The position numbers and the translations under genes are program-made. From a virus, in the IMG/VR virus record IMGVR_UViG_3300010371_000066, positions 1 through 40,026 of that record: a stretch of DNA of 40,026 nucleotides. One strand, 5' to 3'. The notes under the pieces are model-generated. The model saw only the letters and a program-made list of their open reading frames with translations, did not search any database and had not been told where the DNA came from. Shown in pieces: positions 8,121 to 40,026 of this stretch; within the stretch, counting starts at the first letter, position 1, and the number at the start of each line of letters is the position of its first letter.

Positions 8121-8344
8121 GCACGCCACGCGAGCAAATCAAAGACCTGAAGGCGGAGGTGGAGCGTCTCCGCTCGCGGCTCACCGCCGCAGAGAACGCC
8201 ATCGCGTGGGCCACCGGGACAATTCCCGTGCCGCCGTTCGGGTGGTTCCACGAAGAGATGGCAGCGGCGGAAGCGGCCGGACGTGGCAGGTACTGGTGGC
8301 GCAGCCCCATGCGCTCCATCGCCGCCACGAAGGGGGAGAAGTAA
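8117..8344 (+). CDS. Hypothetical protein with N-terminal coiled coil, 75 aa
   Basis: ATG at 8117 overlaps the preceding stop after GGAGGGCGAG. Residues 5-30 form a short coiled coil (IKDLKAEVERLRSRLTAAEN), followed by an aromatic segment (FGWFHEEM...RYWWRSPM). Similar small proteins occur in many phages. Role unknown. This is the last clear gene before the integrase region. Confidence 0.6.
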   Translation: MSTPREQIKDLKAEVERLRSRLTAAENAIAWATGTIPVPPFGWFHEEMAAAEAAGRGRYWWRSPMRSIAATKGEK

Positions 8345-8350
8345 GCCACC

Positions 8351-8782
8351 GTGTCCTCTCCTGCTGCTGCTAGAGAGCATTGCGCTGGCCCCTGGTTCTG
8401 TGAGGGCTGTGCGGCACGCTACTGCGGCGGCGTTTCCGTGAAGAGCTTCAGGAGGCATTTGCGCCCACTGACAGATCCGTCGTATGTGGGCGATCTCCCG
8501 CGCTGGCACAAATCCGACCTCGACAGCGCCATGCGGCAGAGCAGGAGGGGATCTTGGGGGGCAAACGAGCAGCGTTCCACGTCAAGGCCCGCGCCGGAAG
8601 TCCCTTCTGGCAGTTCCACTGCACAATCGACGGACAGCCCATCCGCGAAGCCCTCAACGTCACGATCGCGGAAGACCCGAACAAAAGAAAGGCTGGCCGA
8701 GAAGCTGCGGCGCGCTACCTCCACCACTGTGCCCGCCTCGGCTCAAAGCCTGCGCCTGTTGCCGTCGAACAAGACACCATGA
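8351..8782 (+). CDS. Doubtful ORF upstream of and overlapping integrase
   Basis: GTG at 8351 opens a 143-codon frame. Its first ~65 codons (Cys pattern CAGPWFCEGCAARYCGG, then PLTDPSYVGDLPRW) look protein-like. The rest overlaps the integrase by 229 bases in another frame and reads as low-complexity Ser/Arg. Either the true gene was truncated by a frameshift near 8550 or only the upstream part once coded. An excisionase would be expected near here, but no excisionase motif is visible. Confidence 0.3.
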   Translation: MSSPAAAREHCAGPWFCEGCAARYCGGVSVKSFRRHLRPLTDPSYVGDLPRWHKSDLDSAMRQSRRGSWGANEQRSTSRPAPEVPSGSSTAQSTDSPSAKPSTSRSRKTRTKERLAEKLRRATSTTVPASAQSLRLLPSNKTP

Positions 8783-9627
8783 CGCTGCTCGAGCAGTACG
8801 TGGATACAGATCTTGCCGCCCGAGCGCGCAAGCGGGGCCCGCGCTACGCCGAGATCGAGGAAACGCGGCTGGTCAAGTACGTGGTGCCGAGATTCCCGCT
8901 GATCAGCATGATCACCCGTCAGACATGGGAAGAGGCGCAAGGGACCATGCGCGGCGTAAAGTTGAGCACAATTCAGCGCGTCACGGTCAGCCTGCGGCTG
9001 TTCCTGCGCTATTGCGTGCGCATTGGGGCGATTCTGGCCCTGCCCATGCTCACCGCACCGTCAGGGACGGAGGCCGCAGCGGATGCGAGCCAAAGGCGGG
9101 CTTTCACGGAAGGGGAGCGGGATCGGTTTCTGCGGGAGGTCCGCAAGTTGAATGCCCGAGCTGGCCGAGTCTACACCGCCCTGCTCTACACCGCATTGCG
9201 CAAGGGGGCGCTGGAGAAGATGCTGCCGGGGTGGATCGACTGGCGCGCCAACCGCGTTACCTTCCCGCCCGGCACCCTCAAGAGCCGCAAGGCCCGCTCG
9301 TTCTGGCTGCACCCGCTGGCGCGCAAGGCCATCAAGGCAGAGATGGGGTTTCGGCGAAACAACTTGCCCGTGTTTGGACGATTCGACTACGACTCCCACA
9401 ACGAGCGCTCAGGCCTCTTCTGGACAGCCTGCAGGCGTGCGCGCATCCCCTTCGATGGCCTGACAGCCCACCACGTCACGCGGCACACAGCCTGCACCAT
9501 CGCAGGCAACAACGGGGCCACCCTGGCCGAATTGATGGCGCTCGGAGGATGGGATACACCGGCAATGGCTATGCGTTATTTGCACTTGGACGCACAGCAA
9601 GGAAGGAAGGCGGTCGAACGGCTTTGA
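8554..9627 (+). CDS. int: Tyrosine integrase
   Basis: A 357-aa site-specific recombinase that would integrate and excise the prophage. The start is TTG at 8554, five bases after AGGAGG (8543-8548), and no in-frame ATG is as well placed. The catalytic set is visible: R216 in TALRKGAL, K243 in TLKSRKAR, H307-x2-R310 in HHVTRHT, W333 in LGGW, and nucleophile Y342 in MRYLHL. Residues ~75-165 form the core-binding domain. A basic N-terminal region of about 60 residues would bind arm sites. It lies at the end of the rightward operon, directly upstream of the candidate attP, as in lambda-type phages. No serine-recombinase features are present. Confidence 0.93.
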   Translation: MGGKRAAFHVKARAGSPFWQFHCTIDGQPIREALNVTIAEDPNKRKAGREAAARYLHHCARLGSKPAPVAVEQDTMTLLEQYVDTDLAARARKRGPRYAEIEETRLVKYVVPRFPLISMITRQTWEEAQGTMRGVKLSTIQRVTVSLRLFLRYCVRIGAILALPMLTAPSGTEAAADASQRRAFTEGERDRFLREVRKLNARAGRVYTALLYTALRKGALEKMLPGWIDWRANRVTFPPGTLKSRKARSFWLHPLARKAIKAEMGFRRNNLPVFGRFDYDSHNERSGLFWTACRRARIPFDGLTAHHVTRHTACTIAGNNGATLAELMALGGWDTPAMAMRYLHLDAQQGRKAVERL

Positions 9628-9646
9628 GCGTTTTGTGCGTTACGGA

Positions 9647-9660
9647 GCCCCGCAAGGGGC
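9647..9660 (+). terminator. Short hairpin after integrase
   Basis: GCCCC-GCAA-GGGGC, a 5-bp stem with a GNRA-type loop, 20 bases after the integrase stop. No T-run follows, so it is a weak terminator candidate or simply a structured element within attP. Confidence 0.35.
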
Positions 9661-9694
9661 ATTCAAGGGGTAGTCACTGACCCCGCTTCACTCT

Positions 9695-9738
9695 GGCCCC
9701 CTGGCGGAACAGGCAGACGCAGTGGACTCAAAATGCAC
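9695..9738 (+). other. attP: Partial tRNA-Leu(CAA)-like sequence, candidate attP core
   Basis: The sequence reads as the 5' part of a leucine tRNA: 7-base acceptor strand (9695-9701), TG, D arm GCG...CGC with the usual 11-base loop (9704-9720), and anticodon arm GTGGA-CTCAAAA-TGCAC with one mismatch and anticodon CAA. It stops there; no T arm, 3' acceptor strand or CCA follows. A truncated tRNA beside an integrase gene is the classic signature of an attachment site. Here the retained part is the 5' half, whereas tRNA-matching attP cores more often cover the 3' half. Confidence 0.6.
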
Positions 9739-9797
9739 TGCGTTACAGAGTGAAAACGTGGTGTTTTTGTGCGTTTGTTGTGCGTTACGGAGGCGAA

Positions 9798-10037
9798 ATG
9801 GTCTGCACGCCTGAGTGCCTTGCGCCCGGCAACACTCCGGTTCCGGACGTGGTGTTGAAGGGGTGGAAGCCGACCGACCAGCGCGCGCCCAACTACGCGC
9901 CCGGCTGGCTGATCACGGCGTTCGACTACGACCACACCGAATACGGGCGCAGAGCAACGATCGAGGAATGGCGCGAGGCCATCGCTTCCATTTGCGCAGG
10001 CCAAGGAAGCGCTGCGCGCAGCCATCGCCTTTGCTGA
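9798..10037 (+). CDS. Hypothetical protein, 79 aa
   Basis: ATG at 9798, five bases after GGAGG. The reading from 9750 would begin inside the attP region and is less likely. The protein contains PGWLITAFDYDHTEYGRRATIEEWREAI, a folded-looking segment. It is a small unknown at the end of the rightward operon, convergent with the leftward lysis genes nine bases away. Confidence 0.55.
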   Translation: MVCTPECLAPGNTPVPDVVLKGWKPTDQRAPNYAPGWLITAFDYDHTEYGRRATIEEWREAIASICAGQGSAARSHRLC

Positions 10038-10046
10038 AGAGGACGC

Positions 10047-10241
10047 CTAGGCCCTCCCCGCCTTCTGCGTCGGCACGTCATCCCCGGCTACATAGGCGTA
10101 TTCGCCCTTGGCGATGCCGCCGTGCTCTTTCCAGATGACCGTGCGCCGCCAGACCAGCCCGCAGTGCGCACAACGAGCCTCGGTAGACGTAGGCTCGGGG
10201 CTGCCTGGCTCGCACTCGGAGCAGTGGGGGATCACTTCCAC
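10047..10241 (-). CDS. Small zinc-finger-like protein, 64 aa
   Basis: Last gene of the leftward late operon. The GTG at 10241 has GAAGGGGG seven bases upstream. GTG 10235 (overlapping the spanin-like stop) and GTG 10268 are alternatives. HCSECE and ARCAHCGLVW give two C-x2-C pairs, a likely zinc knuckle. Function unknown. Confidence 0.6.
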   Translation of the reverse strand: MEVIPHCSECEPGSPEPTSTEARCAHCGLVWRRTVIWKEHGGIAKGEYAYVAGDDVPTQKAGRA

Positions 10242-15448: not shown

Positions 15449-15765
15449 CAGTAGGGCACCTGCGCGTCAGGCTGGCCACCCATCAAGAGTCGCGCCTGCG
15501 CCGCCTGCCGCGCCTTGATGTTGTCGGCCTGCTGGCCTTCAAGCTGGTTTTCGTGAATCGCTCCGAAGATCGAGGCGAGGCCGTTGCCTGCCCCTGCAAG
15601 CGCCCCATAGGATTGCCGCTGCTGCATCCGCATCGCGTGAGCGCGGGCAAGTTGCTGCTGGAGCATTTCGGCCTGCGGGTCCAGTCCTGCCTCTGAACCG
15701 ACATGTGCATTCGGACCGAGGCTCTTGATGTAGGCTTGAATGTCGGCCATGTCCTGCGGGTTCAT
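15448..15765 (-). CDS. Small virion-associated protein, 105 aa
   Basis: ATG at 15765 overlaps the upstream stop by four bases; a longer frame from 15945 overlaps the S74 gene and is rejected. Helical, Gln/Ala-rich (EMLQQQLARAHAMRMQQRQS) with GNGLASIFGAIHENQLE in the C-terminal half. Probably part of the internal protein set. Confidence 0.65.
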   Translation of the reverse strand: MNPQDMADIQAYIKSLGPNAHVGSEAGLDPQAEMLQQQLARAHAMRMQQRQSYGALAGAGNGLASIFGAIHENQLEGQQADNIKARQAAQARLLMGGQPDAQVPY

Positions 15766-34377: not shown

Positions 34378-34995
34378 TCACTCGTCGGCCTTCTCGGCTT
34401 TGTCTTGCCAGTGAGTGACGCGGAGGTCTTCGCCTGAGATGTGCTGCCACCCGACCGGATCTCCGTTAAGTCTGGACGCGATGCGCTGGCCGTATTTGGC
34501 TTTGAATTCCTCGCCGGTGAGATTGGTTGTCACGATGCTGGGCCGCCGATTCGCTTCGCGGTGTTCGAGCACGTCCGTGATGCGCGACGCCGCGTAGCCT
34601 CCGGGGCTGTGCTCAATCCCCACGTCGTCCAGCACCAGGAGTCCAGCGGCTCGCATGCGCTCGTCCAGCGTGGTCTTGCGGACGCCGTATTCATCGGGGT
34701 CCGTGAAGTCTGGCTTGGCGAGGTCGGGGGCGTGAACCCACAGCCCCGCCTGCTTCGACAACGCGTGAGCACATGCCGTGCTTTTGCCGCAGCCAGTGCC
34801 GCCCGACAGCACCGCCAGCACACCATCGCCAGCGAGAATTTTCTGCACGACCCCAAGCGCCAATGTCGGCCGCGCCTCGATGGCGATCCGGTGAAACTTG
34901 CTCGGCACGCCAGCCCAGCGCATCGAGTCTTCCGGGGTCACGATACGCCGTACCCACTCCACTCCCTTTGCATCCGTAAATCGCTCGTATTTCAT
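34378..34995 (-). CDS. DnaC-like helicase loader, AAA+ ATPase
   Basis: 205 aa, ATG 34995. Walker A GGTGCGKST (65-73), Walker B LLVLDDVG (119-126), sensor I TTN (156-158) and Arg residues in GQRIASRLNG. The family loads the host replicative helicase (DnaB) at the origin. Directly downstream of the replication initiator, as with lambda O and P. Confidence 0.8.
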   Translation of the reverse strand: MKYERFTDAKGVEWVRRIVTPEDSMRWAGVPSKFHRIAIEARPTLALGVVQKILAGDGVLAVLSGGTGCGKSTACAHALSKQAGLWVHAPDLAKPDFTDPDEYGVRKTTLDERMRAAGLLVLDDVGIEHSPGGYAASRITDVLEHREANRRPSIVTTNLTGEEFKAKYGQRIASRLNGDPVGWQHISGEDLRVTHWQDKAEKADE

Positions 34996-34998
34996 GGC

Positions 34999-35817
34999 TT
35001 AAAGCACCTTCCTTCCAGGTGTCTCGGACTGCAATTTGTCGCTGACTTGCAGGTGCGCGGTCGGGCGCCGCACGAGCTGCGAGCGCGCGTTTTCCCCTCG
35101 CATCATGCCGATCAAGTACGCCTCGCCCTTCTTCTCGGCGGCGCAGGCGCGGTCCAAATATTCGTTCGCGGCCCGAACGCGTATCTCTGGCGTAAACTGC
35201 CTTGCCCGCATGAGAAAGCCGCGCCATGGGCCTTCCGCCATGGCCCCGCTGGTCCGCGTTGACGCGATGGCTTGATGCACGCGTTCGAGTAGATCCGAAG
35301 GCCAGCCATCTGAAAGCTCCGCCAGTGAAGGCAGCGGCTGAGCCGAAGGCGAAGACGCAGGGAGATCTTTTTCTTCTTTCTGATCTTCTTCTACTTCTGC
35401 TCTAGACGCGTGACGCCCCTGCGTGACATTTGAAGTTGTCACTGGTGACAGTGGTGTCTTGTCACGCGTGACAAGCCCCCTTTTTCGATCTTGCCTGTCA
35501 CGCCACATTGCGCGCTGCTCTTCCAGTGTGACTTCGCCTTGACGCTTGGTGAAGTTGAGCAGGCGAATGGTGCCGTCGGGGTCCAGTTCGACCATTCGCG
35601 CGGCCTGAAAGTGAGTGAGCCCGGTCGCAACCGACTTGCGGGGGATGTTGAAAGCCCCCGACAGTAGCGCCACGTCGTATCCGTGGATTGCGCCGTGGTC
35701 GTCCACCTTCTTTGCCAGGCAAATCAGGCAGGTCCACAGGTGACGAACGGCGATGGGCTGACCGAGGATCTTTCCGTCGGTCGGCATGTCCACATCAACC
35801 TTCGCCCAGATTGGCAT
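34999..35817 (-). CDS. Replication initiator (O-like)
   Basis: 272 aa, ATG 35817. The N-terminal half (IAVRHLWTCLICLAKK...GAFNIPRKSVATGLTHFQAARMVEL) is a winged-helix DNA-binding domain of phage replisome organisers, closing with IRLLNFTKRQ. Residues ~110-165 are a low-complexity linker whose DNA holds GTCAC/GTGAC iterons and an AT/pyrimidine-rich run. The C-terminal domain (WPSDLLERVHQAIAS) likely contacts the loader. The arrangement matches lambda O, whose gene also contains the origin. Confidence 0.8.
   Translation of the reverse strand: MPIWAKVDVDMPTDGKILGQPIAVRHLWTCLICLAKKVDDHGAIHGYDVALLSGAFNIPRKSVATGLTHFQAARMVELDPDGTIRLLNFTKRQGEVTLEEQRAMWRDRQDRKRGLVTRDKTPLSPVTTSNVTQGRHASRAEVEEDQKEEKDLPASSPSAQPLPSLAELSDGWPSDLLERVHQAIASTRTSGAMAEGPWRGFLMRARQFTPEIRVRAANEYLDRACAAEKKGEAYLIGMMRGENARSQLVRRPTAHLQVSDKLQSETPGRKVL
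35369..35503. other. ori: Candidate origin of replication (iterons plus AT-rich run)
   Basis: Within the initiator gene linker: GTGAC/GTCAC cores at about 35410, 35423, 35438, 35445, 35461, 35468 and 35496. These include the perfect 18-bp palindrome CTTGTCACGCGTGACAAG (35458-35475) and TGTCAC-TG-GTGACA (35437-35450). Next to them is an A/T- and pyrimidine-rich stretch 35369-35404, a possible unwinding element. The layout parallels lambda ori inside gene O. Confidence 0.65.
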
Positions 35818-36141
35818 CTATCCGAGCCCCAATCCAGCCAGCACCATGCGTTCCAGGTGGGCCTTGAGATAGGCAGTGACCCGCTCTGATTTGGCGATGG
35901 TGATTGATCTGCCTACGTAATTCGCATTGCAAAACCAGCAGAGCAGGCCACGAACAAACTGCTTTCGCTTTTCAGGGGGGAGCGTCTTCCACCCGCGAAC
36001 GTGTTCGTGGTCGATGTGCAGGAAGCGCTTTGGCGGCTTGCGGCAGACTGCGCACTTGCCTTCCTGCCGCTCCAGGATGTCCAGCCAGTCACCTGCCGAG
36101 AGGCCGTATTTGCGAAGCGTGGCTGCAGTCGGTGGCTTCAC
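35818..36141 (-). CDS. Endonuclease VII-like Holliday-junction resolvase
   Basis: 107 aa, GTG 36141 overlapping the methyltransferase stop. The sequence LERQEGKCAVCRKPPKRF, then LHIDHEHVRGW, then RGLLCWFCNANYVGRS gives the zinc-binding Cys pairs and catalytic DH of recombination endonuclease VII (T4 gp49 type). It resolves branched DNA before or during packaging. Typical length. Confidence 0.85.
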   Translation of the reverse strand: MKPPTAATLRKYGLSAGDWLDILERQEGKCAVCRKPPKRFLHIDHEHVRGWKTLPPEKRKQFVRGLLCWFCNANYVGRSITIAKSERVTAYLKAHLERMVLAGLGLG

Positions 36142-38000: not shown

Positions 38001-38234
38001 CTACCGCTTGCTATGTCGCTTGATCTTCACCAGCCCCCACGACTCAGCCGGAACAGCGCCGCCGCTTCCAACATGGACCTTGCGCGCCCGATACACGTCG
38101 AGGTTGCGCACCCTACGCATGGCCCGCGTGAGGCATGTGCCATCAACACCGATGCGCCCGGCAAACGCCGTCGCGGACAGTCCGTTCTGATGCAGGTAAT
38201 TGGCGAGGAGCGTCGCGCCATCGATCTCACCCAT
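38001..38234 (-). CDS. Cro-like repressor, 77 aa
   Basis: ATG at 38234 (MGEIDGATLLANYLHQNG). LSATAFAGRIGVDGTCLTRAMRR is a helix-turn-helix of Cro/CI type. If the TTGACA-N18-TACCCT pair on the minus strand (38272-38243) is used, transcription starts within two bases of the ATG, giving a leaderless message. A start at 38279 is open but would lie upstream of that promoter. Divergent from the CI-like gene, first gene of the replication operon. Confidence 0.65.
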   Translation of the reverse strand: MGEIDGATLLANYLHQNGLSATAFAGRIGVDGTCLTRAMRRVRNLDVYRARKVHVGSGGAVPAESWGLVKIKRHSKR

Positions 38235-38247
38235 GGAAGCTAAGGGT

Positions 38248-38280
38248 ACTATGGCATTAGCCACAGTGTCAAGCGCCATA
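38248..38280 (-). promoter_or_regulatory. OR-like operator and leftward promoter
   Basis: An imperfect palindrome between ATGGC and GCCAT (38251-38279), with TTGACA on the minus strand at 38272-38267. It shares ACTATGGCAT, GCCACAG, TGTCAA and GCCATA with the site at 39353-39391 (which is reversed and carries a 4-base insertion). Likely bound by both repressors. Confidence 0.65.
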
Positions 38281-38676
38281 CGTGAGCCCACCGCCACACT
38301 GGACCCCGGATACAAGGCCTACGTGGCGGCTAAACCATATCTTCCCAACGAAATAGACAGGCGCGTCGTGGCCCACCTGAGACGACTCATCGCGGACGGC
38401 AGGTTCTCCAGCCCATACGCGCTAGCCGTGACGGCCAAGTTGGATTCCTCTACGATCTACAAGATGTTCAGCGGCGAGCGCGGGGTCGGAACGGACACGC
38501 TGGTCAAACTGCGCGACAACCTGAAGGTGCAGGCCGACTGGCTATTGGACCCGGTCCCGCAGGAGGAGATGGACGCCGCGATCCGCCCAACAGGGCCGGT
38601 CGAGAGAATTGTTAAGGCCGCCGTGCGGGCACATGCGTCGAAGGGCAGGGCGCGGCCCGCAAAAACAGGGGGTTGA
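38251..38676 (+). CDS. CI-like repressor, 141 aa
   Basis: ATG at 38251 preceded by TAAGGG; ATG 38236 in the same frame is an alternative. FSSPYALAVTAKLDSSTIYKMFSGERGVGTDTLVKLRDNL is an XRE helix-turn-helix. The protein lacks the S24/LexA-type autocleavage domain of lambda CI, so induction is not by RecA-stimulated self-cleavage. The C terminus is basic. It lies between two related operators, as cI does in lambda. Confidence 0.65.
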   Translation: MALATVSSAIREPTATLDPGYKAYVAAKPYLPNEIDRRVVAHLRRLIADGRFSSPYALAVTAKLDSSTIYKMFSGERGVGTDTLVKLRDNLKVQADWLLDPVPQEEMDAAIRPTGPVERIVKAAVRAHASKGRARPAKTGG

Positions 38677-39509: not shown

Positions 39510-40026
39510 GTGACGCGGGAGAGCTATACGAAAGACCAGATCGCAGAGATCCTTGCGTTGCACGGCAAGTGGATGCGCGGTGAGAACGGAGGATCCCGCG
39601 CGAACCTCTCCCGCGCGAACCTCTCCCGCGCGGACCTCTCCCGCGCGGACCTCTCCCGCGCGTACCTCTCCTGCGCGGACCTCTCCCGCGCGTACCTCTC
39701 CCGCGCGAACCTCTCCCGCGCGAACCTCTCCGGCGCGGACCTCTCCTGCGCGAACCTCTCCCGCGCGGACCTCTCCCGCGCGGACCTCTACGGCGCGGAC
39801 CTCTACGGCGCGGACCTCTCCGACGCGAACCTCTCCCGCGCGGACCTCTACGGCGCGGACCTCTCCGACGCGAACCTCTCCTGCGCGAACCTCTCCGGCG
39901 CGAACCTCTCCGGCGCGGACCTCTCCGGCGCGGACCTCTCCGGCGCGAACCTCTCCGACGCGTACCTCTCCGGCGCGGACCTCTCCGGCGCGAACCTCTC
40001 CGGCGCGAACCCCTCCGGCGCGAACC
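39510..40026 (+). CDS. Pentapeptide-repeat protein, N-terminal part
   Basis: GTG at 39510, ten bases after AGAAGGGGG. The first ~28 residues ([20 protein letters not shown]...) match the usual N-terminal lead of phage pentapeptide-repeat proteins. From 39594 about 29 units of A-[NDY]-L-[SY]-[RGCD] follow to the window end and continue at base 66. First gene of the OL-controlled operon. The folded solenoid may mimic DNA, as in Qnr/MfpA proteins that act on gyrase; that function is inference. Confidence 0.85.
39594..40026 (+). repeat. 15-bp tandem repeat array (pentapeptide coding), right end
   Basis: About 29 near-identical 15-base units. Variation is mainly at the codons for the first, fourth and fifth residues (R, G, C or D; S or Y). 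The homogeneity at DNA level suggests recent expansion or frequent recombination, and explains why the assembly was cut here. Confidence 0.9.

Follow-up and report, generated by a model that had tools for sequence, protein, structure and literature searches.

Among the T7-like cyanophages, P-SSP7 and S-TIP37 were described, in the available passages of PMC8776855, as carrying an integrase gene (int) followed by the first half of a tRNA-Leu gene, and integration of this type was shown there to require int and the phage attachment site (attP). The integrase of the Thermococcus plasmid pTN3 has 41 bp in common with the 5' half of a tRNA-Leu gene, and the rebuilt tRNA, cut from its own promoter, was stated to owe its expression to the promoter of the integrase (excerpts of PMC5495485 and PMC8371274). 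According to the portion seen of PMC4383910, a 5' tDNA fragment was recorded in 159 of 3919 Islander islands and a 3' fragment in 3760. The locus analysed here has the same order of int and tRNA-Leu first half as these cyanophages and lies in the IMG/VR virus record IMGVR_UViG_3300010371_000066, the whole of which (40,026 bases) is referred to as the window. The initial annotation had implied that retention of a 5' half is a rarity, which is at odds with the islands, the cyanophages and pTN3; no description of the integrase or attP of this phage was found in open-licence papers.

The segment at 9633-9792 is very probably the attP, and the locus was read, with high confidence, as that of a phage that is inserted by its tyrosine integrase into a tRNA-Leu(CAA) gene of the host and rebuilds the tRNA from a phage-borne 5' half. 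As initially proposed, this half was located just after int, as 39 nt starting 67 nt past the int stop (9627). It corresponds to tRNA nucleotides 1-39 and contains the 7-nt acceptor strand (GGCCCCC), the D arm, the 5' strand of the anticodon stem and the entire anticodon loop (CTCAAAA), the end of which is its last base. The bases at the position of the 3' anticodon stem already differ from a tRNA, and the downstream DNA is not tRNA; thus, the classical arrangement of an attP with a tRNA 3' half was not found, and the 5' half runs through the anticodon loop without a 3' half. The absence of the 3' half was also indicated by ARAGORN, by which 0 tRNAs were detected in the whole window, and the half was not recognised as a tRNA by Rfam, as expected for a half molecule.

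The half is flanked by two exact copies of a 15-bp repeat, TTGTGCGTTACGGAG, which is present in exact form only at these two places within the 40 kb, the nearest copies outside attP carrying 4 mismatches. A shared repeat of this length was obtained in 0 of 200 within-arm shuffles for the window (with the half set one base off), and likewise in 0 of 200 for the relative L002 described below. Four arm-type repeats had been counted initially; the two exact copies were retained, and the other two were found to be partial (Table 1). A T-rich stretch between the core and the P' arm (TTTTTGTGCG, 9764-9773), in which 8 of 10 bases are kept in L002, is a possible further arm or host-factor site.

Table 1. 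Coordinates of int and of the attP elements in the window
Feature	Position	Strand	Basis
int, tyrosine recombinase (integrase), 357 aa	8554..9627	+	PF00589; phrog_1; 63% identical relative (L002) with the same neighbourhood
P-side arm-type repeat TTGTGCGTTACGGAG	9633..9647	+	exact copy of 9778-9792
5' half of tRNA-Leu(CAA) gene, GGCCCCCTGGCGGAACAGGCAGACGCAGTGGACTCAAAA, block shared with the expected host site (attB)	9695..9733	+	36/39 in L002; half-only matches in other integrase-bearing viral contigs
Putative left core-type site CGCAGTGGA	9718..9726	+	8/9 inverted match to 9734-9742
Anticodon loop CTCAAAA, putative 7-bp overlap (crossover) region	9727..9733	+	L002 identity ends directly after; analogy with classical tyrosine integrases
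Putative right core-type site TGCACTGCG, phage-specific, not the 3' stem of the tRNA itself	9734..9742	+	inverted match to left site
Partial arm-like repeat TGCGTTACAGAG	9739..9750	+	11/12 match; 11/15 over the full repeat; abuts the core
9-base partial arm-like repeat TTGTGCGTT	9767..9775	+	9 shared bases; 11 bp before the P' copy
P'-side arm-type repeat TTGTGCGTTACGGAG	9778..9792	+	exact copy of 9633-9647

In the classical plan, the core of an attP is a 7-bp overlap with one core site on each side. According to the passages of the pTN3 papers (PMC5495485, PMC8371274), this plan is matched by the anticodon loop and stem, and by analogy the crossover would be best placed in the anticodon loop. 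The agreement of the inverted 9-mers CGCAGTGGA and TGCACTGCG was equalled by only 4 of 20,000 random right flanks.

The assignment of int was done by profile searches, in which its catalytic domain was matched by PF00589 (37.4 bits, E 2.8e-9, above the curated cut-off of 27.1) and the protein by phrog_1, an integrase family (E 2.6e-28). A C-terminal Y and an HxxR motif were visible by eye in the alignment of integrases (alignment A2), with a predicted catalytic role. The closest match in the phage collection was that of S-SRP02 (30% identity), and no match was obtained for int in the search of solved structures.

What is kept and what changes was estimated by comparison with L002, whose integrase is 63% identical to that of the window (alignment A2), with the same layout and neighbourhood and the same 67 nt between int stop and half. 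The identity was 36 of 39 positions in the half and 22 of 67 in the preceding 67 nt; it begins at tRNA nucleotide 1 and ends with the anticodon loop, so that the pair represents a clean natural experiment in which the tRNA half is kept and its surroundings are changed. The L002 half is flanked by exact copies of another sequence, GTGACGTAACTA, at a spacing of 146 (145 for TTGTGCGTTACGGAG in the window). Both repeat copies have thus changed together between the two phages while the half stayed, as would be expected if arm sites follow their integrase. Moreover, since about 16 bp of the half suffices for recombination and conservation nevertheless reaches nucleotide 1, the retention of nucleotides 1-23, which lie in no core site, suggests that the rebuilt tRNA is under selection to function. 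These results also bear on a tRNA-dependent lysogeny, in which phage and host have only a short core in common, integration destroys the host tRNA and its loss is made good by a complete tRNA of the phage. Such lysogeny is known at tRNA-Leu-CAA for the phage Gaia, with an 8-bp core (excerpt of PMC10865867). For the window it is very improbable, as no cognate phage tRNA gene was found by ARAGORN (the record ends being perhaps slightly incomplete), and a full 39-nt half is conserved where about 16 bp would serve recombination; such lysogeny would call for a common core of about 10 bp.

Both ends of an integrated element were found in G337, the record behind the half-only match L133, which has an IMG/VR isolate-type name and in which the tRNA half occurs twice, 73 kb apart on one strand. 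At 15489 the tRNA-Leu(CAA) is complete, and its upstream DNA aligns with the P side of two half-only attPs, L104 (E 4e-8) and L171 (E 7e-12). At 88715 a stranded half lies directly after a tRNA-Leu(UAA), and the DNA downstream matches the P' side of L104 and L171 (E 2e-11 and 5e-43, respectively); no match to the attP of either was obtained for the DNA before it. As judged from these alignments, G337 has the predicted geometry, with a phage 5' half joined to a host 3' half and the host 5' half left behind. The reversed direction of restoration that had been suggested initially is therefore supported on two sides, by L002, which keeps the half and not the flanks, and by G337, which displays the geometry at both ends. 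The stranded half is also located shortly before int, so that in a G337 lysogen int may be under the control of the promoter of the host tRNA.

The distribution of such halves was estimated by scanning viral contigs, the window and L002 included, with a pattern for the 5' half of tRNA-Leu(CAA), by which at least 103 matches were obtained. Among the matches listed, 80 of 103 were complete tRNAs, 22 lacked the 3' half and 1 lay at an edge. For further counts, 21 half-only cases were used after the removal of L161 (a complete gene truncated where its contig begins); L135 was retained as a half although a loose test had flagged it as possibly complete, L102 was dropped as too near the contig end, and L080 and L081 were taken to represent L004 and L003, respectively, with placement measured jointly with L079. 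PF00589 scored over its cut-off in 17 of these 21 listed records, was weak in 1 and was not found in 3. The integrases represent several families, which resemble that of the window little or not at all, and this abundance of unrelated integrases with tRNA-Leu 5' halves is the unexpected part of the survey. In 9 of the 21 listed (the window, L002, L010, L012, L014, L022, L135, L154 and L174), the half lies 9-217 nt downstream of int and on its strand; it precedes or overlaps the int start in others (L003-L005, L104, L133, L155, L163 and L171), and in L101 is faced by int from the opposite side.

That phages often carry complete tRNA-Leu(CAA) genes would also allow the half to be the decayed remnant of a tRNA gene encoded by the phage, with no part in integration. 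This is scarcely credible here, because decay would not end at the same base in the diverged L002, would not leave an integrase in the 17 listed half-only cases and would not put paired repeats around the half. As a separate observation, a complete tRNA-Leu(CAA) was found 6-123 nt after int on the same strand in L008, L011 and L015 (integrase loci L095, L094 and L093, respectively), in the first two near the contig ends, and these probably mark the ends of prophages at which a 5' half from the phage has rebuilt the tRNA. In L096 and L092, which carry integrase relatives of this set, the tRNA is faced from its 3' side, and the side of the tRNA used may thus switch within one integrase family.

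For the other leucine tRNA patterns, the listed matches comprised 3 UAA halves among 80 loci and, likewise among 80 loci, 14 CAG and 5 UAG halves; 21 of these 22 records carry an integrase domain, and capture of the 5' half is thus not limited to the CAA isoacceptor. An integrase is present in the records of the UAG halves L386, L395, L404, L385 and L436 and of the UAA halves L309 and L326, respectively. One identical sequence accounts for 12 of the 14 listed CAG halves (L380, L384, L391, L396, L398, L402, L413, L416, L421, L440, L447 and L451; integrase domain in 11 of the 12, not in L402), a class that looks like the published cyanophage attP class, the two being likened without sequence comparison. 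The listed matches gave half/complete counts of 14/4 for CAG, 5/56 for UAG, 15/63 for CAA and 3/75 for UAA. A preference for tRNAs with C34 is strong in these raw counts; on inspection it is weak and only a lead, because the denominators depend on the repertoire of complete tRNAs in phages, most of the CAG halves are identical and the counts cover only the matches listed. It was considered that tRNA-Leu genes, especially those whose anticodon starts with C (CAA, CAG), could be a convergent hot spot of 5'-half capture at which many unrelated integrases exploit a promoter swap. This proposal, itself improbable, arises from the fact that a sister tRNA can decode the codons of these tRNAs as well. 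If it were true, UUG or CUG decoding in lysogens would come under phage (int) transcription as a lysogeny-linked translational switch.

In the proposed integration, the integrase would bind the arm-type repeats on both sides and the inverted pair of 9-bp core sites that flanks the 7-bp anticodon loop, within which strand exchange would take place. Because phage and host share the 5' half of the gene, the int-side junction would be composed of the phage P arm, the phage 5' half and the host 3' half, that is, a complete tRNA-Leu(CAA), and the other junction of the host promoter, the stranded host 5' half and the phage P' arm. The promoter of the host tRNA would in this way be replaced by phage DNA, as the initial annotation had considered possible. 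With the host promoter left at the other end, the rebuilt tRNA would have to be transcribed from the phage side, most likely by read-through from int or phage DNA with trimming by RNase P. No sigma-70-like promoter or terminator-like site was found at 8300-10100, and as none lies between int and the half, read-through from int, as also put forward for pTN3, would be the simplest route; it is more speculative than the identity of the host attB, the crossover position and the restored function of the tRNA, which we infer from the comparisons above. The lack of a promoter-like site before the half would equally suit a half that serves as recombination homology only, the restored tRNA being neither expressed nor needed since UUG is also read by tRNA-Leu(UAA), and halves are indeed commoner for CAA than for UAA among the matches listed. 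Such a role is unlikely, as the difference between CAA and UAA is confounded by the repertoire of complete tRNAs in phages and selection seems to keep nucleotides 1-23 outside the core sites. This conservation suggests instead that the rebuilt tRNA must work and would therefore be transcribed from phage DNA.

Several results weigh against integration with tRNA restoration as proposed for the window phage. The inverted match of the right core site is weaker in L002 (5/9), and L002 was the single source of a relative of the window integrase among the viral contigs scanned. The integrase family of G337 is a different one, and its half precedes int where that of the window follows it; since a second integrase (47% identical) also lies directly beyond the rebuilt tRNA, G337 supports the principle and not the window phage directly. 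The search for a promoter-like site upstream of the half was negative, and expression of the restored gene is unproven. Finally, no lysogen, attB, attL or attR of the window phage or L002 was found in the genomes scanned, a set without Myxococcota, the presumed host phylum.

As deduced from the half, the host tRNA-Leu(CAA) gene would be expected to start GGCCCCCTGGCGGAAC-GGCAGACGCAGTGGACTCAAAA. A relaxed 5' pattern of this tRNA was matched in 131 of 299 Pseudomonadota genomes, and GGAACNGGCAGACGC, as in the window phage and L002, was absent from the listed matches, so that no host was found there. The only one of these genomes with two close copies, G261, was considered as an island and rejected, both copies being complete tRNA genes. 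The integrase scan of genome contigs (alignment A2) gave at best 24% identity, in Motiliproteus (L028). The host gene and the prophages joined to it that had been anticipated were accordingly not recovered from either source. By BLAST with 51 bases around the half, 0 of 26 plasmid records reached 80% coverage, with no full-length match, and one phage record did so, which is an annotated tRNA-Leu (81% identity).

The affiliation of the virus was estimated from its virion genes. The large terminase is closest to that of Myxococcus phage Mx9 (52.7% identity; 31-39% for the other listed records), and the portal to those of Mx9 (46.2%) and Mx8 (43.0%), on which basis a temperate, Mx8/Mx9-related phage with a myxobacterial host is likely. 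A repressor-like helix-turn-helix gene is present at 38200-38676 (phrog_8, E 1.8e-4; PF01381 below its cut-off). This gene, together with the temperate nature of the relatives Mx8 and Mx9 (excerpt of PMC6070905), argues against transient integration without stable lysogeny, which could be supposed from the int-then-first-half layout common to the window and the T7-like cyanophages (PMC8776855, in part) and which is improbable here. Ordinary replication and recombination genes were also found, for an ERF-type recombinase, a replisome organiser, a DnaC-like loader and an endonuclease VII (1240-2016, 34999-35817, 34378-34995 and 35818-36141, respectively). The record ends (1-160 and about 39590-40026) share one 15-bp minisatellite coding for pentapeptide repeats, within which the assembly probably broke, and the genome may be circular or permuted. 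Circularity through one open pentapeptide-repeat gene was rejected, as the joined ends gave no single open frame, and circularity is unproven.

Compared with the known systems, within the passages available of each paper, the T7-like cyanophages have marine cyanobacterial hosts and no stable lysogens were found for them (PMC8776855), whereas the virion genes of the window are nearest to Mx8/Mx9. In the archaeal plasmid pTN3 the attP is part of the integrase gene, and integration splits this gene, while the window int ends before the half begins. The 5'-fragment islands of Islander comprise mixed elements, and in them it is the 5' end that is displaced, as expected for the window (PMC4383910). 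The mycobacteriophages Omega and Gaia use the same target, tRNA-Leu-CAA; Omega carries the 3' half (44 bp), and in Gaia, with its 8 bp shared, the tRNA is not rebuilt (PMC10865867). Unlike the window, Mx8 has its attP inside its int gene (PMC6070905), and the integrase reading frame of Mx9 is longer (549 aa, against 357 aa). The survey hints that the 5'-half class is commoner for tRNA-Leu than the approximately 4% of Islander islands would suggest. The use of a tRNA 5' half is thus a real, already known and less common mode, here an ordinary mechanism in a new Myxococcus-phage-like lineage, which joins the few well-described elements by which a tRNA is rebuilt from its 5' half and severed from its own promoter.
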